From Blastococcus sp. DSM 46786 (GTDB lineage: Bacteria > Actinomycetota > Actinomycetes > Mycobacteriales > Geodermatophilaceae): a DNA stretch of 64,000 nucleotides. Position 1 is the stretch's first letter, and the number at the start of each line of letters is the position of its first letter. The notes below the pieces were generated by a model that saw nothing but the letters and a program-made list of their open reading frames with translations, had not been told where the DNA came from and ran no database searches. Of this stretch, positions 22,581 to 60,892 are shown in pieces. The position numbers and the translations under genes are program-made. The stretch is from positions 1 through 64,000 of the forward strand of contig NZ_FOAO01000010.1 in NCBI RefSeq assembly GCF_900109665.1, written 5' to 3'.

Positions 22581-24098
22581 ATGCCGCAGTACGTCGCAGC
22601 CATCGACCAGGGCACCACGAGCACCCGCTGCATGATCTTCGACCACGACGGCGCGGTCGTGTCGGTCGGGCAGAAGGAGCACGAGCAGATCTTCCCGAGG
22701 GCCGGGTGGGTCGAGCACGACGCGATGGAGATCTGGCGCAACACCCGCGAGGTGGTCGGCCAGGCCATCGCCCGCAGCGACGCCGGCCCCGCCGACATCG
22801 TCGCCGTGGGCATCACCAACCAGCGCGAGACCGCCGTCGTCTGGGACCGGGCGACCGGTGAGCCGGTCTACAACGCCATCGTCTGGCAGGACACCCGCAC
22901 CACGAAGATCATCGAGGACCTCGGCGCGCTGGGCGGCGGGGCCGACCGGTACAAGGACCGGGTCGGGCTGCCGCTGGCCACCTACTTCGCCGGGCCCAAG
23001 ATCCGCTGGATCCTGGACAACGTCGAGGGCGCCCGCGCGCGGGCCGAACGCGGCGAACTGCTCATGGGGACCATCGACTCCTGGCTGATGTGGAACATGA
23101 CCGGCGGTGCCGACGGCGGCCAGCACCTCACCGACGTCTCCAACGCCTCGCGCACGATGCTCATGGACTACCGGACGCTGGCCTGGGACGAGTCCATCGC
23201 CGAGGAGATGGGCATCCCGGTGTCGATGCTGCCGGAGATCCGCTCCAACTCGGAGGAGTACGGCAAGGGGCGCAAGGCCGGATTCCTCGCCGGGGTGCCG
23301 ATCTCAGGATCGCTGGGTGACCAGCAGGCGGCGACGTTCGGGCAGGTCTGCTTCGAGCGGGGGATGGCCAAGAACACCTACGGCACCGGCAACTTCATGC
23401 TGCTGAACACCGGCGAGGAGGCCGTGCCGTCGCAGAACGGCCTGCTCACGACGCTGTGCTACCAGCTCGGCGACGCGAAGCCCGTGTACGCGCTGGAGGG
23501 GTCGATCGCGGTCACCGGGTCGCTGGTGCAGTGGGTGCGCGACAACCTCGGCATGATCAGGAGCGCCCCGGAGATCGAGGACCTGGCCCGCTCGGTCGAC
23601 GACAACGGCGGCTCCTACTTCGTCCCGGCGTTCTCCGGGCTGTTCGCCCCGCACTGGCGATCCGACGCCCGCGGGGCCGTCGTCGGGCTGACCCGGTACG
23701 TGAACAAGGGCCACCTCGCCCGGGCGGTGCTGGAGGCGACCGCCTACCAGACCCGCGAGGTGCTCGACGCCATGAACGCCGACTCCGGCGTCGACCTGAC
23801 CGAGCTGCGGGTGGACGGCGGGATGGTCGGCAACGAACTGCTCATGCAGTTCCAGGCCGACCTGCTCGACGTGCCGGTGATCCGCCCGGAGATCGCCGAG
23901 ACCACCGCGCTGGGCGCCGCCTACGCGGCCGGGCTCGCGGTGGGCTTCTGGTCCGACCTCGACGAGCTGACCGCCAAGTGGGCCGAGGACAAGCGCTGGG
24001 AACCGCAGATGGCGGCCGAGGAGCGGGAGCGGAACTACCGCAACTGGCAGAAGGCGGTGACGAAGTCCCTGGACTGGGTCGACGAGGACACTCTGTGA
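22581..24098 (+). CDS. glpK: Glycerol kinase, copy 2
   Basis: 505 aa FGGY kinase with the same signature order as copy 1: [62 protein letters not shown]. This version looks closer to canonical GlpK, with longer family-typical stretches. ATG at 22581 has GAGAGGAA upstream, and the gene follows glpF by 23 bp, so glpF-glpK2 is one unit. Downstream is a duplicated 79-bp hairpin block. Confidence 0.93.
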
Positions 24099-24126
24099 TC
24101 TGTCGTCCTCCCGGACGACACCGCGA

Positions 24127-24289
24127 CCAGGTGCCGTCCCCGACCGGCGCCGAGCCACTGCCCGTGTCCCGGTCGGGAACCCTCCGGGCCCCGCGACCGG
24201 TCCACCGCGGCCAGGTGCCGTCCCCGACCGGCGCCGAGCCACTGCCCGTGTCCCGGTCGGGAACCCTCCGGGCCCCGCGACCGGTCCAC
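24127..24289. repeat. Tandem duplication of a 79-bp hairpin block
   Basis: Copies at 24127-24205 and 24211-24289 are identical over 79 bp and spaced 84 bp apart. Each contains CCCGACCGG and its exact complement CCGGTCGGG (24139-24147/24169-24177 and +84). They sit between glpK2 and the convergent pgm gene, so they may act as doubled terminators. Confidence 0.85.
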
Positions 24290-24306
24290 GCCGGCTGAAT
24301 GCCGTA

Positions 24307-24336
24307 CCCCGGCGGTCCTCGACCGGCCCGCCGGGG
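24307..24336. terminator. Hairpin between glpK2 and pgm
   Basis: CCCCGGCGG (24307-24315) pairs with CCGCCGGGG (24328-24336). It lies 8 bp beyond the pgm stop on the minus strand and after the duplicated block on the plus strand, so it may terminate both convergent transcripts. Confidence 0.55.
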
Positions 24337-24343
24337 TCCGGCA

Positions 24344-25978
<1,635 letters not shown>

Positions 25979-26016
25979 GCCGTTGATCTTGACGCCCGCG
26001 CCGGTCCGGCGCGAGC

Positions 26017-26454
26017 TCAGGCGCCCCGGCGGGGCTCGCCCCGGTAGGTGCCGAACTGCCACAGGTTGCCCTCGGGGTCCCGGGCGGCGAAGTCCCGGCT
26101 GCCGTGGTCGGTGTCGTAGGGCGGCCGGACGATCTCGGCGCCGGCGGCGACCGCGCGGGCGTGCACGGCGTCCGGGTCGGCCGTGACCACGTAGCAGCCG
26201 GTGGACTCCACCGGCCACTGCCCGCCGTCGTCGCGCACCGAGCCGAGCATGACGCCGCCGCCCTCGGGCCAGTCGAGCTGGGCGTGGTCCACCCGCCCGC
26301 CCTCGCCGTAGGTGACGGTCTCCTCGAAGCCGAACGCGTCGACGAGGAAGCGGATGAGCGCCCGGGCGTCGCGGGCGCGGAAGGCGGGCCACACCTGCGG
26401 CGGCGGGGCCTGGCCCGCGCCGGGTGCCTCTGCGGTGGTCATCGGGTTCGTCAT
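26017..26454 (-). CDS. VOC-family (glyoxalase/bleomycin-resistance) protein
   Basis: 145 aa. Two beta-alpha-beta-beta-beta modules: [33 protein letters not shown]...HAQLDW and a second with [49 protein letters not shown]. The H...E pattern fits a metal-binding VOC fold. Substrate is unknown. Its ATG overlaps the AraC regulator's stop by four bases (ATGA), so it is translated with that regulator. Confidence 0.82.
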
Positions 26455-27287
26455 GCCCCCGAGAGTGCCGAGTCCAGCGCGGAGGTGTCTTGCACGTATC
26501 CGAACTCCGCGGCCAGCCAGCGGGTCGGCGCCAGCCCCGAGAACGCCGTCCACTCCCGGGTCAGGTGCGCCTGGTCGCTGAACCCGGCGGCGACGGCGAG
26601 GCCGGCGAGGTCCGGCGGCAGACCACGGGAGACGCGGGCGGCGAGCGCGCGGCGGGCCGCATCGAACCGCACCACGCGGGCCGCCTCCTTCGGGCCCAGC
26701 CCCGTCTCGGCGCGGAACCGCCGCTCGAGGTACCGGGTGGACCAGCCGACCCGGGCGGCCACCTGGGCGACGCGCAGCCGGCCGCCGCCCGCCGTCGTCA
26801 ACCGCCAGGCCTCGCCCACCTCCGCCGGGACGCCGTCGTCGTCCCGCAGCCTGCGCAGCAGCCCCTGGTCGAGCGCGGCGAACCGGGCCGGCCAGCCGTC
26901 GGCGGCGCGGACCCGGGCGAGCAGCTCCCCGCCCGCCGGGCCCAGCAGGTCCTCCAGCGCGACGTCCGCCGAGGCCAGTTCGCCGGCGGGTACGCCGAGC
27001 AGCGCCCGCGCGCCCAGCGGCGTGAGGGAGAGCTGGATGCCGGCCTGCCGGCCGGGGTGGACGATGCGCGCCGGGCGGGTGTGCAGCCCGCCCACCAGGG
27101 CGTCGAACCGGCCGGGGGACTGCGCCGGGTCGGGATGCGCCGCCATCTCCAGCGGGTCGTCCAGGGTGAGGACGACGGTCAGCCAGGGGGAGGGGAGGCC
27201 CAGGTGCTCGCCGGGCGGGAAGCCCTCGTGCCGGTAGCCGAGCGCGGCGGCGACGTCGGGGCGCAGCACCGGGTGCGGGCGGTGCAC
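26451..27287 (-). CDS. AraC-family transcriptional regulator
   Basis: 278 aa. The C-terminal AraC helix-turn-helix pair is clear ([42 protein letters not shown]...[31 protein letters not shown]). The N-terminal domain ([39 protein letters not shown]) is a ligand-sensing region of the short cupin-like type. GTG at 27287 is preferred because AGGAG lies six bases before it; GTG at 27290 and 27305 are alternatives. It probably controls the overlapping VOC gene. Confidence 0.85.
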
Positions 27288-27405
27288 CACCGACTCCTGC
27301 CGCACCCGGCCAGGATGGCAGCGGGGGGCCCGGTGCTCCAGGGGGTCCGCGACGCCGGCGGACCAAGCCGTCCGCGCGGACGGTGGTCCGTGGGCCCGTG
27401 AGAAC

Positions 27406-27858
27406 TCAGTAGCCGGCGGTGGACGCGACCCCGAAGAGGACGAAGAGGGTGAAGAGCCCCACCCCGATCCAGCCGAGCACGATCCCCGCCGTCGCCATGC
27501 CACCGCCGGCCTCGCCGCGCTCCTGGATCTGCCGCTTGGCGACGTAGCCGAAGACCAGCGCCAGGATGCTGCCGATCCAGTACAGCCAGAGGATGCCCAA
27601 GACCATCGAGGCGATGGCCATGCCGTTGGTGCGCTGCGGCGGCGCGTACGGGTAGCCGCCGTACGGCGGCTGGCCGTAGGGGCCGGGGTACGGCTGCCCG
27701 TAGGGACCGGGGTGACCGCCCGGCGGCGGAGGCGGCGGGCCCTGGTAGCCGCCGGGCTGCGCAGGACCGCCGTAGGGCGCCGGCTGCTGACCCCAGGCCG
27801 CCGGGGCCGGCCGGTACGGATCGTCGGCGCCGGGGTGGTTCGGACCGGAGTACGTCAT
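27406..27858 (-). CDS. DUF4190 membrane protein with Pro/Gly/Tyr-rich N-terminus
   Basis: 150 aa. The first 75 residues are rich in Pro, Gly and Tyr (GGYQGPPPPPPGGHPGPYGQ and further PYG repeats); the C-terminal half has two membrane helices (AIASMVLGILWLYWIGSILALVFGYVAKRQI and GGGMATAGIVLGWIGVGLFTLFVLFG) matching the DUF4190 pattern. Function unknown. AGGAG lies upstream of the ATG at 27858. It is monocistronic as far as can be seen. Confidence 0.8.
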   Translation of the reverse strand: MTYSGPNHPGADDPYRPAPAAWGQQPAPYGGPAQPGGYQGPPPPPPGGHPGPYGQPYPGPYGQPPYGGYPYAPPQRTNGMAIASMVLGILWLYWIGSILALVFGYVAKRQIQERGEAGGGMATAGIVLGWIGVGLFTLFVLFGVASTAGY

Positions 27859-28209
27859 CTGCTCGCTCCTGTGGCGGGTGGCGCCGGGAGCACGTCCCCG
27901 GCGGTCGCACCATCGTGACGGTCGACGGGGGCCGCACGGACGCGGCGCGCGGCATCGACCACCCCGACGAGGGAGCGTTCGGAAGACGCGGACCCCGGCA
28001 CCGCGTCGGCGTCGCTGGCCGTGGGTCGTGCCCGTCCGCCTCGATCAGGTGGACGTCGGGCTCACCGGGTGCGCCGGTGCCCTCCCACGGATTCGTCGAC
28101 CACGCCGAGTCGGCGGGCGTCCCGCCCACCGCGCTGAGCTGCGGTTTCTGTCGTACCCGGGGCCTAGATTCGGGGTGTCGGTCGAGGCCTGGCGGGAGGG
28201 AGCGAGCAC
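27859..28209. other. 351-bp intergenic region without a gene
   Basis: This divergent gap separates the DUF4190 and DUF222 genes. Frames here are short and lack conserved motifs. The only feature I note is TTTCTG (28145) with TAGATT (28165), a weak promoter-like pair before the DUF222 gene. Confidence 0.5.
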
Positions 28210-29424
28210 GTGTCCGAGCTGCGCTCCGCCCTCGACGAGCTGGCCGCGATCGACCTGACCGATCTGTCGGACGACACGTTGCTCGACCTCGTCGGCGAGC
28301 TGAGCACCACCGCGAGCCGGGTCGCCGCGGCACTCACCACCGCGGTACGGGCGGCCGACCGCCGGGAGGCCTACCGCCGTGACGGCGCCGTCTCCATGCA
28401 GGCCTGGTTGCGCGGCAGCTGCCGCATGGCGCCCGAGCAGGCGACGGCCACGGTGTCGACCGGCCGGAGGCTCGAACAGCTTCCGGAGACCGCGGCGGCT
28501 TTCGCCGCCGGAGCGATCAGCGCCGCGCACGCCCGGGTCATCACGAAGGCCATGACGCCCGGCCGGATCGCCAAGGCTGCCGAGATGGGGATCGACCTCG
28601 GCGAGACCGACGGCATCCTGGCCGACCTTGCCCGGGCCACGGCCCCGCACGAGACCGCTCGGGGCGTGAAGGAGTGGGTCGCCGGGGTGGACCCGGACGG
28701 GACGCTGGACGACGCTGCCGATGTCCGCCGACGTTTCAGCATGGCGTCCGGCCTTGACGGGCGCGTCCACCTCCGCGGCGAGCTGGATGCCGCCGGCGGT
28801 GAGTACCTGCACAGCGCGCTGGGTGCTCTCATGAACGGCGACCGCCCTGCTGGTGACACCCGCTCCCACGCCGAGCGACAGGCCGATGCGCTGGTCGCGC
28901 TGGCTCGTGGGGCTCTCGACGGGGGCTCCCTCCCCGACGTCCGCGGTGAACGGCCGCACGTGCGGGTGACGATCGACTGGTTCGCCCTGTGCGCCGCGCG
29001 AGGAGCTCCCGGCGTGGCCGGCGGATCCCTGGGCTGGGCCGGTCCCATCAACCCCGAGACGGCACGCCGGCTGGCCTGCGATGCCAGCGTCGTCCGCGTC
29101 ATCACCGGCCCGGACGGGCTGCCACTGGACGTCGGCCGCGCTCAGCGGACCTCGTCAACGGCGATCCGCCGGGCCATCGAGGTCCGTGACGCGCACTGCG
29201 TCTTCGCGGGCTGCGACGCCCCGCCGGAGTGGTGCGACGTCCACCACGTCGTGCACTGGGCGCACGGCGGGCCGACGAGCTGCGACAACGGCGCACTCCT
29301 CTGCGAGCGGCACCACACGAGCTGCCACGAAGGCGGGTTCGCCATCCGGCGAGATCCCGGCACCGGCCGCTGGCACACCTACCGGCCGGACGGCACCGAG
29401 ATCCTCAGCCGCGCCGGCACCTGA
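28210..29424 (+). CDS. DUF222 / HNH endonuclease-signature protein (13E12-like)
   Basis: 404 aa. The N-terminal DUF222 helical domain covers about residues 1-290, followed by an HNH motif: RDAHCVFAGCDAPPEWCDVHHVVHWAHGGPTSCDNGALLCERHHTSCHEGGF, with C-x4-C and the H-H/N/H residues intact. Such proteins are often multicopy in actinobacteria; whether they cut DNA in vivo is not settled. GTG at 28210 follows a GGGAGGGAG ribosome site. Confidence 0.88.
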   Translation: MSELRSALDELAAIDLTDLSDDTLLDLVGELSTTASRVAAALTTAVRAADRREAYRRDGAVSMQAWLRGSCRMAPEQATATVSTGRRLEQLPETAAAFAAGAISAAHARVITKAMTPGRIAKAAEMGIDLGETDGILADLARATAPHETARGVKEWVAGVDPDGTLDDAADVRRRFSMASGLDGRVHLRGELDAAGGEYLHSALGALMNGDRPAGDTRSHAERQADALVALARGALDGGSLPDVRGERPHVRVTIDWFALCAARGAPGVAGGSLGWAGPINPETARRLACDASVVRVITGPDGLPLDVGRAQRTSSTAIRRAIEVRDAHCVFAGCDAPPEWCDVHHVVHWAHGGPTSCDNGALLCERHHTSCHEGGFAIRRDPGTGRWHTYRPDGTEILSRAGT

Positions 29425-29449
29425 CCCGCCGGCGGCCCGCCGCCGCCCG

Positions 29450-29785
29450 CTACGCGCCGCGCGGGGCGTACATGATCACCGCGACGCCGACGAGGCAGAT
29501 CAGCGCGCCGGCGACGTCGTACCGGTCCGGCCGGAACCCGTCGACGGCCATGCCCCAGGCCAGGGACCCCGCGACGAAGACACCGCCGTAGGCGGCGAGG
29601 ATCCGGCCGAAGTTCGCGTCGGGCTGCAGCGTGGCCACGAAGCCGTACAGCCCGAGCGCGATCACCCCGGCACCGATCCAGGCCCAGCCGCGGTGCTCGC
29701 GCACTCCCTGCCACACGAGCCAGGCACCCCCGATCTCGGCCAGCGCCGCCAGCGCGAAGAGCACCAGGGAGCGGAGGACGGTCAC
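29450..29785 (-). CDS. YnfA/UPF0060-family small membrane protein
   Basis: 111 aa, four short membrane helices: [59 protein letters not shown] and [20 protein letters not shown]. The pattern [11 protein letters not shown]...[16 protein letters not shown] and [30 protein letters not shown] fits YnfA, an SMR-like family of four-helix proteins. GTG at 29785 overlaps the upstream hydrolase stop by four bases. Confidence 0.88.
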
Positions 29786-30801
29786 CGCTCCACCGCGCCC
29801 GGGCCCTGCGACTCCTCCTCGACTCCGTCGAGGCCCTGCGCCTCCTCCTCGACTCCGTCGAGACCCTGCGCCTCCTCCTCGACTCCGTCGAGGCCCTGCG
29901 ACTCCTCCTCGACTCCGTCGAGACCCTGCGACTCCTCCTCGACTCCGTCGAGACCCTGCGCCTCCTCCTCGACTCCGTCGAGAAAGCGCCGCAGCGTCGC
30001 CAGGAAGACCTCCGGCTGCTCGGAGTGCACCCAGTGCCCGGCGTTCTTCACCTTGACCAGCCGCGTGGAGGGGAAGAGCGCGTCCATCTGCGGCCGGTCC
30101 TCGGGCAGCACGTAGTGGGAGTTCGCCCCCGCGATCCACAGCACCGGGCCGTCGAACACCGCGCCCGGCGGCGGGTCGGGGAAGCCGCGCAGCTCGCCGA
30201 GGTCCCGCGCGAGGAGCTCGAGGTTCAGCCGCCAGTGCCAGCCGTCGCCCTCCTCCTCCCGGCTCAGGCTCTGCAGCAGGAAGCTGCGGACCATCCGGCT
30301 GGGGACGGCGGTGCGCAGGGCGGCGTCGGCGTCGGACCGGGACTCCAGCGCCCCCAGGTCGATCGCCCGCATCGCGGCGATGAAGGCGGCGAACGGGGAG
30401 GCCTCCTCGTCGGGGTCCTCGGTCCGGCCGCCCTTCAGCGGGTACTCGACCGGGGCGATGTCGACGGCGACGAGCGCGCGCAGGAGCTCGGGCCGGCGCA
30501 GCGCCAGCTGCATCGCGACCTTGCCGCCCATGGAGTGGCCGACGAGCGTGGCCGGTTCCCCGAAGGACTCCAGCTCCGCGGCGACAAGTTCGGCCATGTC
30601 CACGTAGTCGACCCGCTCGGTCCACGGGGAGTGTCCGTGGTTGGGCAGGTCCAGCAGCGTCACCCGGTGGTCGCCGGCCAGACCCTTGGCGATCGTCGTC
30701 CAGTTCTTCCCCTGGCCGAACAGGCCGTGCACGAAGACGACGCGCGGGCCGGCCTCACCCAGCGTCCGGGCGTGCAGGGCTTCCTCGGCGTTCTCCGTCA
30801 C
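29782..30801 (-). CDS. Alpha/beta hydrolase with a six-fold C-terminal 10-residue repeat
   Basis: 339 aa. An alpha/beta hydrolase of the YbfF type covers about residues 1-275: [14 protein letters not shown], the nucleophile elbow VGHSMGGK, the acid in the following core and the final His in [15 protein letters not shown]. After it comes a highly acidic tail of six units of [20 protein letters not shown] ending in PGAVER. Homologues usually stop after the His segment, so the tail is an addition. GTG at 30801 is the likely start. Its stop overlaps the YnfA-like gene. Substrate unknown. Confidence 0.85.
29803..29982 (-). repeat. Six tandem 30-bp repeats in the hydrolase gene
   Basis: Six units of exactly 30 bp, differing only at two positions (G/A at position 1 and A/C at position 9 on the plus strand). 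They encode LDGVEEE(A/S)QG and preserve the reading frame, so copy-number change would alter tail length only. Confidence 0.95.
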
Positions 30802-30844
30802 CGGGCGATTCCACCAGAGCGCGCGGATCCGCGCGGCCCCGCGG

Positions 30845-32092
30845 TCAGTCCAGCACGACCTCCGTCTCGCCGGTGGCGGCGTCCAGCGTGATGTGCCCCC
30901 GCTGGAAGTCGACGCGGCTGCCGCCCTCGACGGCCTGGACGCCGCTCGTCGGGTAGCCCAGCGGCCCCAGCTCCCAGCCGGTCTGGCCCCAGCGCGACCA
31001 GATGGGCCCGTACACCTCGTGCGCGCCCGTGCTCGGCGAGAAGTAGATCGAGGCGCCACCGGGCCGGGAGAAGTTCTGGTACCGCCCGACGCCGTCCGGC
31101 GAGCTGCGCTCGCCGGTGATCGGGTAGCCCAGCGGCCCGAGCTCGTAGGCCAGCGACCCGTAGTGCCCGCGGATGGCCCCGTAGATCTCGTGCGCCCCGG
31201 TCGCCGGCGTGAAGTAGATCGTCCCCGGACGGGAGAAGTTCTGGTAGCGCCCCACCCCGTCCGGCGAACCGCGCTCCCCCGTCGTCGGGTAGCCCAGCAG
31301 GCCCAGCTCGTAGCCCAGCGACCCGTAGTGCCCGCGGATGGCCCCGTAGATCTCGTGCGCCCCCGTCGCCGGGCTCCAGTAGATCGTCGCCGGTCGGGCG
31401 AAGTTCTGGTAGGCGCCGGCACCGTCCGGCGAGCGCATCTCCCAGCCCACCGGCACTCCGAGCATGCCGCCCTCCTGGCCCAGCGCGCGGTACCGGGCCT
31501 CGATCGCCGACCAGGTGACCGGGACGCCCATGCGCGAGCCCGCCTGCTCCCGCTCGGCGATGACCGGCCACACGTTGGCCCGGCAGCCCTGCAGCGAGAT
31601 CGACTGCTGCTGCATCACCCAGGCGGTGCGGCCCGCGGTCGGGCAGTCGGTGTGCGGGATCCCGATCCAGTGCCCGACCTCGTGCAGGATCACGTACCGC
31701 TGGTACAGCGCCAGGTCGTGCGGCCACGCGGCCGTGCCGAACCGCCAGCGCTCGTCGTTGATGTAGACCGAGCGCCCGACCCGGCAGCTCCACTGGGCGC
31801 TGCACCCCGGCGAGGCCGCCGCGATCACCGACGGCGAGGCCAGGATCAGGTCGAAGTCGCTCCCCGAGCCGACCTGCTGGAACGCCAGGGTCCCACCCAG
31901 GCTCCAGCCGCGCGGATCGGTGAGCGCGTCGCGCGCGACGTCGGCGAAGTGCCCGAGGTCGCCGGCGACCGCCCCGCGGGTGGAGACCGTGTAGGTCACC
32001 GTCCGCTCCGCGGCGGAGGCACCGGTGGGCTGCAGGAGCACCGCCGCCACGGCGACGAGGGTGGCGAGGATGAGGCGCAGGGTTCTGGTCAT
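30845..32092 (-). CDS. Secreted DUF3152 metalloprotease-like protein with LGFP repeats
   Basis: 415 aa. A signal peptide (MTRTLRLILATLVAVAAVLLQPTGASA) precedes a DUF3152-type domain with the zinc motif HEVGHWIGIPH (HExxHxxGxxH) and paired cysteines. The second half is four LGFP-type repeats of about 53 residues (LGxPxxxE...GAYQNFxRxxIYxxPxTGAHEIYGxIxxxY). Repeats 2 and 3 are almost identical. LGFP modules are thought to bind the actinobacterial cell envelope, so this is probably a wall-associated peptidase. ATG at 32092 has GGAGG six bases upstream. Confidence 0.88.
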   Translation of the reverse strand: MTRTLRLILATLVAVAAVLLQPTGASAAERTVTYTVSTRGAVAGDLGHFADVARDALTDPRGWSLGGTLAFQQVGSGSDFDLILASPSVIAAASPGCSAQWSCRVGRSVYINDERWRFGTAAWPHDLALYQRYVILHEVGHWIGIPHTDCPTAGRTAWVMQQQSISLQGCRANVWPVIAEREQAGSRMGVPVTWSAIEARYRALGQEGGMLGVPVGWEMRSPDGAGAYQNFARPATIYWSPATGAHEIYGAIRGHYGSLGYELGLLGYPTTGERGSPDGVGRYQNFSRPGTIYFTPATGAHEIYGAIRGHYGSLAYELGPLGYPITGERSSPDGVGRYQNFSRPGGASIYFSPSTGAHEVYGPIWSRWGQTGWELGPLGYPTSGVQAVEGGSRVDFQRGHITLDAATGETEVVLD

Positions 32093-32314
32093 GAGGTCCT
32101 CCGGCGCGGGCAGCGGTGCCCGTGCGTCGCATCCGGGCCGGCGGACGGCGGGGACCGATCGAGCGCCGGCTGCTGTCGCCGACCGGTCTACCGCATCGGT
32201 GCCCCCGGTTGGCATGTCGGTCGCGTGACGATCGCCCCGACGGCGCGCTCGCTGCCTGCCCGGAGCCGTCGTCCCCGGCCTCTACCGTGCCGGAGGACCG
32301 ACGAGGGGATGCAG

Positions 32315-34063
32315 ATGCCAGGACGACGCCGGAGCGCGGGCAGCGGCCGCAGCACGGGCAGCAGCACGCGTACCCGCCGGACGACGGCGGCGACGACGCG
32401 GAAGACGACCCCGCGGAAGGCGGCACCGCGGAAGGCCGCCCCCGACCTGCCCGCCGCCGGCCCGGGGGAGCGGGTCTGGGTGCTGGCCGTGCCCTTCCGC
32501 GCTCCCGCGCCGGGCGCCGTCTGGCACCCCGGGCTGCAGGCCCACGTCTGGGTCGGCGCGGCGCTGCCCCCGGAGCTCGCGCCCTACGACCCGCCGGCGT
32601 ACAGCCTGGAGCGCTTCCTCGAGGACGAGCTCAACGAGACGCCGCGCCCGCTGCCGGTGACCCCCGCGCTGGTGCCGCGCCCCCAGCAGGAGGAGGGCGC
32701 CGCGGTGGTCGCCGCGCACGCCGCCGCAGGAGGCCGGGTCTTCCTGCTCGGCGACGACCCTGGGGTGGGCAAGACCGGGACGGCGATCCTGGCGGTGCAC
32801 GAGATCGCCGCGCAGCGGCCGGTGCGCACCGTCCTGGTCATCGCCGACCGGCCGGCCGCGATCACCATCCCGCACTGGGCGCGCTCGATCGCCGGCTTCG
32901 GCGACGGCGGCCTGCGGTGGTGCGTCACCACGTGGGACCGGCTGGGCAAGGTGGCGAAGCTGCGCTTCGACGTCGTCGTGGCCGACGAGGCCCACATGGT
33001 GCGGCACACGACGACGCAACGGTGGAAGCACTGGAAGGCCGTCTCCGGCGCCGCGCGGGTCAAGGACACCCCGTACGTGCTGGCCGCGACCGCGACGCCG
33101 GCGCACACGCCCCTGGAGCTGCCCTACCTGGCGCCCGAGCTCGCCGCCCGGCACGGCGAGTCCATCAAGGAGTGGGCCGACCTTCCCAAGGCGCTCGTGC
33201 GGCACACGTTCCACGTGGAACGTGGCCGCTACGGCTGGCAGTGGACCGAGGACGCCGACGAGCGCCGGGCGGACCTCGCCCGCCTGCAGTCCTGGCTCGC
33301 CGACGCCGACCCGCCCGCCACGCTGCACCGCCCGGCGCCCTGGGGGCCGGTGTCGGTCACGGGCACGCCGGTGCTGCTCACCCCGGCCGAGCGGGCGCAG
33401 TACGAGGCCGGGTGGTCGGAGTTCCGCGCGGAGATGCAGCTGGCCCGGCGCGGCCGGCAGACCGCGCGCGGCCGGGCGGCGCTGCTGCGGTTCCGCCAGA
33501 AGGCCGGGCTGATCCGCGTGCAGGCCACCGTCGACTGGATCAAGGCGCAGGTGGAGGCCGAGCGGCAGGTCGCGGTGTCGGTGGAGTTCGTGGAGACGGC
33601 GGCCGACCCGATCCGCGAGGCGCTGCTCGACGCCGGCATCCCGGTGGCGTCGATCTACGGCCGCGACCGCTTCGACGTCGAGGCCGAGCGGCTGCGCTTC
33701 CAGCGCGGTGACGCCGCGGTCTGCGTCTTCACCGTCACCGCGTCGATCAGCCTGCACGCCGGTGAGCTGCTGCCCGGCGGGTCCACGGCATCGGAGATCC
33801 CGCGGGTGGGGCTGTTCCACCAGCCGCGCTTCTCCGGCATCCAGGCGCGGCAGGTCACCGGGCGCACCCACCGCGACGGGCGCTCCTCGCCGTGGCGGGT
33901 CGCCTTCGCCGCCGACACGGTGGAGGAGCAGGTGGCGCGGGTGATGGTCGAGCGGCTGGCCGTCAGCGGCTCCACCGCCGGGGCGGACACCTCCTCCCTG
34001 CAGGAGATCGCCGAGCTCCTCGACGCCGACTGGCTGCCCGCGGCCGCGCTCACCGAGGGCTGA
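32315..34063 (+). CDS. SNF2-like DEAD/DEAH helicase
   Basis: 582 aa. A basic, Ser/Thr/Ala-rich N-terminus (TTRKTTPRKAAPRKAAPD) precedes the helicase core: Walker A GDDPGVGKT at 147-155, DEAH at 224-227, motif III-like AATATPAHT and the C-terminal motif VI-like QVTGRTHRDGR. This resembles compact SNF2-type helicases without accessory domains. The second ATG (32315) is chosen because AGGGG lies six bases before it. No nuclease or methylase neighbour indicates restriction or defence. A parS-like site lies inside the gene, encoding RHTFHVERG. The 3' end overlaps a convergent gene by 14 bp. Confidence 0.82.
   Translation: MPGRRRSAGSGRSTGSSTRTRRTTAATTRKTTPRKAAPRKAAPDLPAAGPGERVWVLAVPFRAPAPGAVWHPGLQAHVWVGAALPPELAPYDPPAYSLERFLEDELNETPRPLPVTPALVPRPQQEEGAAVVAAHAAAGGRVFLLGDDPGVGKTGTAILAVHEIAAQRPVRTVLVIADRPAAITIPHWARSIAGFGDGGLRWCVTTWDRLGKVAKLRFDVVVADEAHMVRHTTTQRWKHWKAVSGAARVKDTPYVLAATATPAHTPLELPYLAPELAARHGESIKEWADLPKALVRHTFHVERGRYGWQWTEDADERRADLARLQSWLADADPPATLHRPAPWGPVSVTGTPVLLTPAERAQYEAGWSEFRAEMQLARRGRQTARGRAALLRFRQKAGLIRVQATVDWIKAQVEAERQVAVSVEFVETAADPIREALLDAGIPVASIYGRDRFDVEAERLRFQRGDAAVCVFTVTASISLHAGELLPGGSTASEIPRVGLFHQPRFSGIQARQVTGRTHRDGRSSPWRVAFAADTVEEQVARVMVERLAVSGSTAGADTSSLQEIAELLDADWLPAAALTEG
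33208..33221. promoter_or_regulatory. parS-like ParB-binding site 2 (intragenic)
   Basis: GTTCCACGTGGAAC, identical to sites 1 and 3, lies within the helicase coding sequence. Because the surrounding protein must also tolerate it, its perfect symmetry favours selection for the DNA site. parS sites within genes are normal in bacteria. Confidence 0.72.
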
Positions 34064-58287: not shown

Positions 58288-60756
58288 TCAGTCGAGCGGT
58301 GGCGGGACGACGGGGCCGGGCGTGCCCGGCTCCGTGTCTGGCGGCTCTTGGGTGCGGTCGTCGATGCCGTCGTTGTTCTCGTCCGGGAACGGCGGCCGCT
58401 GGGTGCGGTCGTCGATGCCGTCGTTGTTCTCGTCCGGGAACGGCGGCTGCTCGGTGCGGTCGTCCACGCCGTTGCCGTTCCGGTCCGGGAAGCTCGGCCG
58501 GGACGGACTCGGGGGCGACGACGGCGCGGCCGGGGTCTCCACCGGCGGCGGCGCCTCGGTCGTCGGCGCCGCGACGCCCTCCCCGGTGTCGCCCTTGATC
58601 AGCGGCTTGTCGGGCAGGTCCTCCTCCGGGGTGCCGGCGAGCACCGTGTCCATGAAGCGCTGCCAGATGGCACCGGGCAGCCCCGAGCCGTAGATGATCC
58701 GCCCGCGGGAGTCGACGATCGGGTCGCTGGGGGAGTCGTTGCCCATCCACACCGCGGTGGCGATGGAGGGCGTGTACCCGACCATCCACGCGTCGGAGTT
58801 GTTCTCCCCCTGCCCCTGGGTGCCGGTCTTGCTCGCGACCTCGCGGCCGCCGTCGAGCGCGCGGCGGGAGTAGGAGGCGACGTCCTTGAGCGCGACGGTG
58901 ACGTCGTTGACGACGTCGGCGGGGAGGACCTGCTCACCCCCTGCGGCGGCGGTCTGGTCCACCAGCACCGCGCCCTCGCCGTCGGTCACCTTCCCGATGA
59001 AGTGGGCGTCGCGGAAGACCCCGTCGGCAGCGAGCGTGGCGAAGCCCTGCGCCTGGTCGAACGGGCGCAGCTCGTACTCGCCGATGCCGATCGACGAGCC
59101 GGTGAGGCCGTCGGAGTTGGCCAGCACCGTCTTCCCCGCGAAGAAGTCGCTGCCGCCCCACGTGTCCGGCAGGCCCGTGGCCGCGAGGATCGTGTCGCGC
59201 ACGTTCTCGGGGCCGACCTCGTAGGCCAGGCCGTAGAACGTGGTGTTGAGCGAGCGCGTGATGGCCTCGGTCAGCGTGCAGGCCGGGCAGCTCGCGCCCC
59301 CGGAGTTGGTCACCGGCAGGCCGGGCCGGTCGGGGAACTCCTGGTCGTCGCTGCCGTCGCGGCGGGCCTGGATGCCGATGCCCTGCTCCAGGGCCGTGGC
59401 CAGGACGTAGGGCTTGACCGACGACCCGGGCTGGCGCTTGGCCTGCGCGTAGTCGGTGCCGACCCCGTTCTCGCCGCCGTAGTAGGCGACGACCGCGCCG
59501 GTGCGCGGGTCGACGGCGACCAGGGCCTCCCGCAGCTCCTGCGGCTCGGGCGGTCCCGTGACCTCCTGGACGGCGGCGACGGCGGCGTCCTGCGCCGGCT
59601 TGCTGATGGTGGTCGTGACCTGCAGGCCACCGGCGTTGACCTGCTGCTCGTCGTACCGGTACCGCTCCTGCAGCTCCTGGGTGACCTGCCGGACGATGTG
59701 GCCCTCGGGGCCCTGGGGCATGCCGAGCGTGGAGTCGGTCTTGGGCAGCACCGGCGGGTACACCGAGGCGGCCCGCTCCTCCGTCGTCAGCCAGCCCTCC
59801 TCGACCATCGCGTCGAGCACCAGGCCCCAGCGGTCCTGCGCGCCCTCGGGGTTGGTCTCCGGGTCGTAGTTGGAGGGGCTCCGGATGAGGACGGCCAGGA
59901 CGGCGGCCTGCTGCGCGGTGAGCTCCGCGGCCGGGATGCCGAAGTAGGTGTTCGCTGCGGCCTCGATGCCGTAGGCACCGCGGCCGTAGTAGATGGTGTT
60001 CAGGTAGTTCTCGAGGATCTGCTCCTTCGAGAAGTTGTTGTCCAGCTTGATCGCCAGGAACAGCTCCTGGAACTTGCGGCTGAACGTCTGGTCGTGCGTC
60101 AGGAAGGCGTTCTTCACGTACTGCTGCGTGATGGTCGAGCCACCCTGCGTGGAACCACCGGTGAGGTTGTTCCACGCAGCGCGCACGATGCCGGTGAAGG
60201 AGATGCCCGGGTCGGAGTAGAAGCTGCGGTTCTCCGCGGCGAGCACGGCTCGCTGCGCCGGCTCGCTGATCTCCGCCAGCGGCACGTTGGTGCGGTTCTC
60301 GTCACCGAGCCGCGCCATCTCCGTCACGCCGTCGGAGTAGTAGATGACCGTGGTCTGCTTGGTCGAGACCGAGTCGGGGCTCGGCACCTCGGTGCTGGCG
60401 TAGACGACGCCGACGAAGACGCACATCAGGGCGAGCAGCCCGCCCATGATCGCGGCGGTGATCTTCAGCCGCCGTGCGCGGCGCTGCTTCCCGCTGCGCC
60501 CGGCCTTGCCCTTCGCGGATGCCGGTCGGCCCGACGGACGGCCGGAGCCGCCGCGAGAGGCCGTGGTCCCGCCGCGCGAGGCCGTGGTGCCGCCGCGGGC
60601 GGGCGGCCGCGCGCCGCCCGACGGGCGCCCGCCCGCCGGGGGACGCCCGGTGCCGCCTCCGCCCCCGGTGCTGCGGGTACGGGCGGCCGGCGGGCGGCGC
60701 ACCGAGCCGGCACGCGGAGCGACGGGCGAGGTCTCGTCGTGGCTGGGCACGAGCAC
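58288..60756 (-). CDS. Class A penicillin-binding protein (bifunctional peptidoglycan synthase)
   Basis: 822 aa. A disordered basic N-terminus (GGTTASRGGTTASRGG), one membrane helix (about 99-120), a GT51 glycosyltransferase (AAENRSFYSDPGISF with E175; GGSTITQQYVKN) and a transpeptidase with SSVK, SLN and SKTGTQ motifs. It polymerises and crosslinks peptidoglycan outside the membrane. The tail has a Pro-rich linker and three 17-residue units with D-x-N-x-D-G-x-D-D, a calcium-loop pattern. Start at GTG 60756 or 60750. Confidence 0.92.
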   Translation of the reverse strand: MLVPSHDETSPVAPRAGSVRRPPAARTRSTGGGGGTGRPPAGGRPSGGARPPARGGTTASRGGTTASRGGSGRPSGRPASAKGKAGRSGKQRRARRLKITAAIMGGLLALMCVFVGVVYASTEVPSPDSVSTKQTTVIYYSDGVTEMARLGDENRTNVPLAEISEPAQRAVLAAENRSFYSDPGISFTGIVRAAWNNLTGGSTQGGSTITQQYVKNAFLTHDQTFSRKFQELFLAIKLDNNFSKEQILENYLNTIYYGRGAYGIEAAANTYFGIPAAELTAQQAAVLAVLIRSPSNYDPETNPEGAQDRWGLVLDAMVEEGWLTTEERAASVYPPVLPKTDSTLGMPQGPEGHIVRQVTQELQERYRYDEQQVNAGGLQVTTTISKPAQDAAVAAVQEVTGPPEPQELREALVAVDPRTGAVVAYYGGENGVGTDYAQAKRQPGSSVKPYVLATALEQGIGIQARRDGSDDQEFPDRPGLPVTNSGGASCPACTLTEAITRSLNTTFYGLAYEVGPENVRDTILAATGLPDTWGGSDFFAGKTVLANSDGLTGSSIGIGEYELRPFDQAQGFATLAADGVFRDAHFIGKVTDGEGAVLVDQTAAAGGEQVLPADVVNDVTVALKDVASYSRRALDGGREVASKTGTQGQGENNSDAWMVGYTPSIATAVWMGNDSPSDPIVDSRGRIIYGSGLPGAIWQRFMDTVLAGTPEEDLPDKPLIKGDTGEGVAAPTTEAPPPVETPAAPSSPPSPSRPSFPDRNGNGVDDRTEQPPFPDENNDGIDDRTQRPPFPDENNDGIDDRTQEPPDTEPGTPGPVVPPPLD
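58341..58493 (-). repeat. Three 51-bp repeats encoding Ca-loop-like units in the PBP tail
   Basis: Period 51 bp, encoding FPDENNDGIDDRTQRPP twice and a diverged FPDRNGNGVDDRTEQPP once. The first two differ by very few bases. Confidence 0.88.
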
Positions 60757-60892
60757 ACCCCTTCCTGGACTGTCATGGTCGACGCCGGGCACCTGCCCGG
60801 ACGCAGCGGTTCGTCTTCAGCTGTGGCAGCGGAGAGGGCCCGCTCCGTCGCGGGCCCGGTGGCACGGTGGGGGCCGGTGACCGGCCGGTCCG

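Follow-up and report, generated by a model that had tools for sequence, protein, structure and literature searches.

The hydrolase gene and its repeat array

The window, i.e., the whole stretch of 64,000 nucleotides of the Blastococcus sp. DSM 46786 genome that was analysed, contains a hydrolase gene that ends in a tandem repeat and overlaps with a ynfA gene. The features of this locus are as follows:

29782..30801, minus strand: hydrolase gene, 339 codons (translation)
Residues 1-273 of its product: alpha/beta hydrolase part (Pfam Abhydrolase_1, E 2.2e-31)
29803..29982, minus strand: six 30-bp in-frame units, each encoding LDGVEEE(A/S)QG (Tandem Repeats Finder and unit list)
29785..29802, minus strand: last six hydrolase codons, PGAVER (translation; 99 orthologue ends compared)
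29450..29785, minus strand: ynfA/UPF0060 gene (Pfam UPF0060, E 4.8e-46; NCBIfam PRK02237 above its cut-off)

The hydrolase is translated from a GTG at 30801 to a TGA at 29782-29784 on the minus strand, and this stop overlaps with the GTG start of ynfA as GTGA, an arrangement with a YnfA-like frame that was found in 15 of the 23 genomes of the genus. The protein has the GHSMGG nucleophile motif and the late GHW histidine of the YbfF-like alpha/beta hydrolases (Pfam), and the residues H89-S90-M91-G92-G93, D114 and G255-H256-W257, which we take to be the catalytic ones, were invariant across 36 aligned hydrolase sequences. The solved chains that resembled it most, 7c4d (putative esterase) and YbfF 3bf7/3bf8, matched over residues 9-275. 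It therefore shares the hydrolase domain with these YbfF-like esterases (PDB 3bf7, 7c4d), but the top matches stop at residues 273-275, where the tail of the Blastococcus protein starts. Its score against NCBIfam PRK10673 (esterase equivalog) was 157.9 bits with a cut-off of 399; judged by its sequence, the protein is a relative of the PRK10673 esterase and not that equivalog. The terminal PGAVER occupies the place of the native LxxVEx codons at the ends of the relatives. No Rfam family reached the gathering score in 24000-33000, and no sites resembling an intrinsic terminator or sigma-70 were found within 29400-30900. A DUF222 protein with a weak C-terminal match to an HNH endonuclease is encoded beside ynfA on the opposite strand (28210-29424, plus strand), while the gene at 30845-32215 (minus strand) encodes a DUF3152 domain and four LGFP repeats, the origin of a 165-bp tandem repeat at 31001-31485.

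Tandem Repeats Finder and the translation confirmed that, as an earlier note on this DNA had described, six in-frame 30-bp units encoding LDGVEEE(A/S)QG lie at the C-terminus of the hydrolase. The program reported 6.0 copies with a period of 30, 96% matches, no indels and a score of 325 at 29804-29983, which corresponds to 29803-29982 in codon phase; from residue 274, the protein reads LDGVEEE(A/S)QG six times, then PGAVER and the TGA. The near identity of the units also held, as only two sites vary among them, GCG/TCG (Ala/Ser) and GGT/GGC, and the lowest pairwise identity was 0.93. These two sites occur in all four combinations and in mixed order along the array, which hints that units were exchanged within it and did not arise through stepwise doubling only. 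A 21-base unit probe, run against the 4.59-Mb genome with up to two mismatches allowed, matched the six copies and one other place (two mismatches). Arrays with a period of at least 15, at least four copies and at least 85% matches numbered four in 422,962 genome bases, i.e., the window and 358,962 bases in 20 sampled stretches that were not a random sample; the six-unit array had the top score among them, and repeats of another class, with longer periods and fewer copies, scored similarly or higher in the same bases. The six-unit array exceeds chance. Its copy number was read from a draft assembly of 47 contigs, and short reads handle near-identical short repeats poorly. That the number six is an assembly artefact is nevertheless highly improbable, since the two variable sites are in mixed order among the units and genomes assembled independently, G082 and G107 with their single contigs among them, have units at this position too.

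Two other repeats in the window are worth mentioning. An 84-bp unit at 24119-24311 is present as a tandem duplicate at 98%, and a similar sequence, GTGCCGTCCCC...GGGACCCTCCGGG, was found at two further places in the genome (G000:C33:103549 and G000:C42:76037), possibly an interspersed family. A second in-frame tail repeat, (F)PDENNDGIDDRTQ(R/E)PP in about three copies, presumably with a calcium-binding look, ends the protein encoded at 58288-60792 (minus strand), which by eye looks like a penicillin-binding protein.

Copy number across the family

An orthologue at the threshold was found in 99 of the 112 family genomes that were searched (one per species, many of them draft assemblies) and not in the other 13, and all 99 of the 3' ends were read. 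The distance from the last conserved Phe to the stop was 5-7 codons in 76 orthologues and exactly 15 in seven; none had 11-14. A unit was present after the Phe in 17 of the 99, intact in nine and decayed in eight, the decayed ones having been judged by eye and after the fact:

Intact 30-bp units: G000, Blastococcus sp. DSM 46786 (6); G020, B. capsensis (2); G014 (1); G009 (1)
Intact 27-bp units: G023, strain TF02A-26 (5); G092, Geodermatophilus sp. TF02-6 (8); G117, Modestobacter lapidis (1); G120 (1); G107, in the genus containing Klenkia soli (1)
Decayed units without a stop: G135, G123, G089
Decayed units with an internal stop: G081, G066, G064, G082, G076

Copy number among the near relatives is 6 (G000), 2 (B. 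capsensis), 1 or 0, and it reaches 5 and 8 in other genera. An invariant copy number, which the earlier note had named as evidence against its reading, was thus not observed, as close relatives have two, one or no unit; copy number differs between genomes here at the level of species. The tail that the note had proposed to seek in homologues was found, intact or decayed, in those 17, and most orthologues are tail-less. The two units of B. capsensis differ in sequence from those of G000, and the G092 array consists of two sub-types with units 7 and 8 diverged.

The note had missed that in some relatives a stop lies inside the unit and the later units are untranslated. The period is 30 (G000, G020) or 27 (G023, G092) in the translated arrays, and 26 (G064) or 29 (G082) in the arrays with a stop inside the first unit, whose later units lie past the stop. 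These periods, although the cases are few, fit repeats that arise at the DNA level and are then filtered by the reading frame. The decayed units of G135, G123 and G089 measure 15 codons, as do intact ones, and the clades of the gene tree, which was built from the hydrolase gene alone, pair decayed with intact carriers (G135/G023, G123/G117 and G089/G092). In G024 and G025, a rare CAA or CGA codon stands at the same place; these codons may be further traces of the unit and are outside the 17 counted.

The palindrome in the unit

The common feature of the units, also missed by the earlier note, is a DNA palindrome with rare codons. Its positions in the array are:

29968..29982, minus strand: palindrome of unit 1, CTCGAC-GGA-GTCGAG, 15 bp (pattern search)
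29938-29952, 29908-29922, 29878-29892, 29848-29862 and 29818-29832, minus strand: palindromes of units 2-6 (pattern search)

Nearly all of the intact units open with CTCGAC-NNN-GTCGAG, which can pair into a six-base-pair stem around a three-base loop; the exceptions are unit 7 of G092 and, with ATCGAC, unit 1 of G020. The first unit has a perfect palindrome in 20 of the 99 orthologue ends, with a GNA loop (N = G, C or T) in ten. Folded as DNA, the hairpin (stem 6, loop 3) has -4.1 kcal/mol, a value that the energy model gave alike for GNA and for another loop, so that GNA was not singled out; excerpts of PMC6479982, citing Yoshizawa et al. 1997, describe GNA loops as very stable DNA mini-hairpins. 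Two palindromes 9-18 bases apart were found in seven of the 112 family genomes, with every match at the hydrolase gene end, and the reversed control of this pattern had no match in the 112, the search being one that presupposes the palindrome. Among 394 genomes sampled from the class, 10 others each had a single isolated pair that matched the pattern. Eight arrays emerged when the 99 orthologue ends were scanned for repeats in an unbiased manner, six of them palindrome-based and two weak 21-bp ones (G083, G089). A perfect first-unit palindrome was present in 5/8 of the ends with arrays vs 15/91 of the others (Fisher p 0.008, with rows that are related rather than independent and G020 scored as lacking a perfect palindrome), and the association between palindrome and array is modest. 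As a separate observation, the last palindrome of the TF02A-26 array (L044, G023:C40:79013-79027) reads TCC in its loop, which is GGA on the opposite strand, as though the loop of the hairpin had been flipped.

In another explanation, fold-back synthesis at the palindrome would have copied the immediately preceding codons in inverted form and so produced the first unit. In the 30-bp type, the symmetric position ranked first of 1562 in G020 and third of 1562 in G000 (18 bases in both), and in G076, a window one base off ranked first (27 bases). However, in G014 and G009 the rank was 16th to 64th of about 1,550-1,590, and the 27-bp carriers and most of the others had no such preference, even with gaps allowed. 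We rejected such a copy as a general origin, the support being fair only in G076 and in some carriers of the 30-bp type, and consider this explanation decidedly improbable.

A 27-bp unit common to several genera

The 27-bp units of G107, G117, G120, G023 and G092 (the last represented by the sub-type found in its units 4-6) share 85-96% identity overall and 89-100% at third positions, while the third positions in the gene cores of the same five carriers are 66-74% identical. A third-position A common to all five was found in 0/257 of the core codon columns vs two of the nine unit codons, and at both of these A-ending codons the second position varies. Such codons are rare in the 99 gene cores: GTA makes up 0.1% of Val, GCA 1.4% of Ala, GGA 2.3% of Gly, CAA 1.5% of Gln and CGA 1.1% of Arg. 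The five carriers belong to four genera and are scattered tips on the gene tree. The exact 27-mer has 11 copies in the 112 genomes, all at the hydrolase gene end; with 2-3 mismatches it matched 15 other places vs nine for the reversed control. Among 397 genomes of the order, a 21-base core was found in the same five carriers, with one match in G680. Transfer of a longer 3' segment was rejected, as the last 10 or 20 codons upstream of the unit resemble one another no more closely in the five carriers than in genomes of these genera that lack it; further up, at 40-80 codons from the end, the pairs G120-G092 and G023-G092 were somewhat above the null.

These findings bear on the main rival explanation, in which an inserting palindromic element, an idea taken from the Rickettsia palindromic elements, entered the site repeatedly in different genera and in frame and then multiplied in some of them. 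The high identity of the units, above all at third positions, the two common rare codons, the scattered carriers and the likeness that stops short of the 10-20 codons upstream are all in its favour. Against it, every one of the 11 exact copies is at a single locus, and decayed units share clades with intact ones. Two probes, by which a phage source was rejected, had no match in the viral contigs, and RAYT mobilisation was rejected because the Y1 (RAYT-type) transposase (PF01797) was not found in any of the 112 genomes, with 5/14 control genomes positive. We regard repeated insertion as unlikely. The 27-bp unit is common to the carriers through descent or insertion, and its letters seem to be either maintained or young. 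We lean towards descent, given that intact units have decayed counterparts of the same length within their clades.

The tail as a protein

The hydrolase model has a confident core and a last helix that extends to residue 293, with a pLDDT of 31-33 from residue 291 on, and the TF02-6 protein model has a helix to residue 312 with falling confidence. The tail is therefore predicted to be disordered, in line with the earlier note. Its acidity, which the note had also pointed out, was confirmed for this protein but does not characterise the family: the part that follows the Phe has a net charge of -24 in G000 (66 residues), -13 in G023 (51 residues) and -5 in G092 (78 residues). Strong acidity is a property of the Blastococcus sp. 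DSM 46786 unit and charge is not conserved. The interpretation in the earlier note is, as a whole, partly supported.

An acidic disordered extension could have been selected for a protein function such as solubility, binding or localisation, and the tail is indeed in frame, open, strongly acidic in G000 and predicted to be disordered. We find this improbable, however, as 76 of the 99 orthologues end 5-7 codons past the Phe, the net charge per residue is near zero in G092, the rare codons and third positions are common to the carriers while the amino acids are not, and stops interrupt the unit in G064, G082, G081, G076 and G066. A necessary function is unlikely, since most orthologues lack the tail, which is probably near-neutral and tolerated rather than needed.

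Comparison with known repeat systems

In bacterial coding minisatellites, or VNTR loci, near-identical units are arranged head-to-tail and their number differs between genomes. The repeat at the hydrolase end works like a coding minisatellite: its six units are tandem and at least 0.93 identical, and their number varies between genomes. It differs in that the unit contains a perfect palindrome at its base and that several genera have it starting at the same orthologous gene end, in both translated and untranslated form.

Excerpts of PMC2996958 describe the PARCEL repeats (palindromic amphipathic repeat coding elements) as tandem protein-coding repeats with dyad-symmetric DNA that are patchy across taxa, dispersed in genomes and composed of 25-residue units in genes of unknown function with DUF285/TIGR02167. 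The tandem coding repeat with DNA dyad symmetry and the patchy distribution are shared with that description, but the unit at the hydrolase end has 9-10 residues and is present in one gene, and DUF285 and TIGR02167 were absent among the matches at E 0.001 in the Blastococcus sequence. The Rickettsia palindromic elements, which according to excerpts of PMC10969869 and PMC3733652 are about 150 bp long and occur many times per genome in unrelated genes, are likewise palindromic DNA in frame within protein genes. The hydrolase-end unit, in contrast, is 27-30 bp long and confined to one locus, all six matches of CTCGACGNAGTCGAG in the Blastococcus sp. DSM 46786 genome being within the array (pattern search). 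An interspersed element was rejected, as CTCGACGNAGTCGAG in 60 genomes had scattered single matches off the locus and the reversed control was scattered likewise. The REP elements, as characterised in the excerpted text of PMC3733652, are high-copy short palindromes that carry GTAG or CGTC tags and frequently lie 3' of coding sequences. A short palindrome is common to the REP/RAYT systems and the hydrolase end, but the palindrome at the hydrolase end is single-locus and no Y1 transposase was found in the 112 genomes. A report of a palindromic repeat at the hydrolase gene end was not found in open-licence PubMed Central, where one paper, PMC8602919, contains both Geodermatophilaceae and 'tandem repeat'.

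Origin of the array and its significance

On balance, we consider it somewhat probable that the array is an old palindromic coding minisatellite, bound to the 3' terminus of the YbfF-like hydrolase gene, that expands, shrinks and decays, with a tail that is probably near-neutral. An ancestor within the family would have carried one unit of 27-30 bp, a CTCGAC-GNA-GTCGAG palindrome together with 12-15 bp of spacer, after the codon of the last conserved Phe and before the native LxxVE end. The palindrome, together with the resemblance between the unit and the native end, would have led to hairpin-assisted misalignment in replication and hence to gain and loss of units; most lineages presumably lost the unit, in some it decayed, and a few amplified it. 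In G000, the array may have expanded and been homogenised after the split from its near relatives, because these have two different units, one or none. Translated arrays would stay at a period divisible by three, as the few cases suggest, because the stop codon and, in Blastococcus, the ynfA start that overlaps with it have to be preserved.

The minisatellite reading is supported by the copy numbers of 6, 2, 1 and 0 in close relatives, by tandem palindromes that are confined to one gene end in the 112 family genomes, by the periods of the translated and untranslated arrays, by decayed units that match intact ones in length and clade, and by a tail that is predicted to be disordered, variable in charge and lacking in most orthologues. 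What counts against it is that, on the gene tree, descent from one ancestral unit would take 29 losses when the nine intact carriers are considered and 35 when all 17 are, whereas with free gains eight or 16 changes, respectively, are enough. Moreover, the retention of identical rare A-ending codons by five scattered carriers is not easily reconciled with neutral decay, and 15 of the 20 ends with a perfect first-unit palindrome have no array. It is possible, though doubtful, that high-GC Actinobacteria harbour a new class of site-restricted, in-frame palindromic coding elements. The C-GNA-G hairpin would then maintain the 27-bp unit as a nucleotide sequence, and the unit would either remain at or return time and again to one gene end in different genera, where it would seed the elongation of the protein. 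The rare third positions of the 27-bp unit, which are fixed while second positions vary, would be a sign of such maintenance.

Taken as a palindromic minisatellite, the evidence points to a repeat in this soil bacterium that is driven by its DNA and is not a purposeful protein tail. A single orthologous gene end displays all of the steps, i.e., no unit, one unit, a decayed unit, an untranslated array and a translated array of two to eight units, and the lengthening of a protein by a palindrome without selection on the peptide is therefore testable on a natural series. It is also a caution that an acidic repeat tail need not be a designed feature of the protein.
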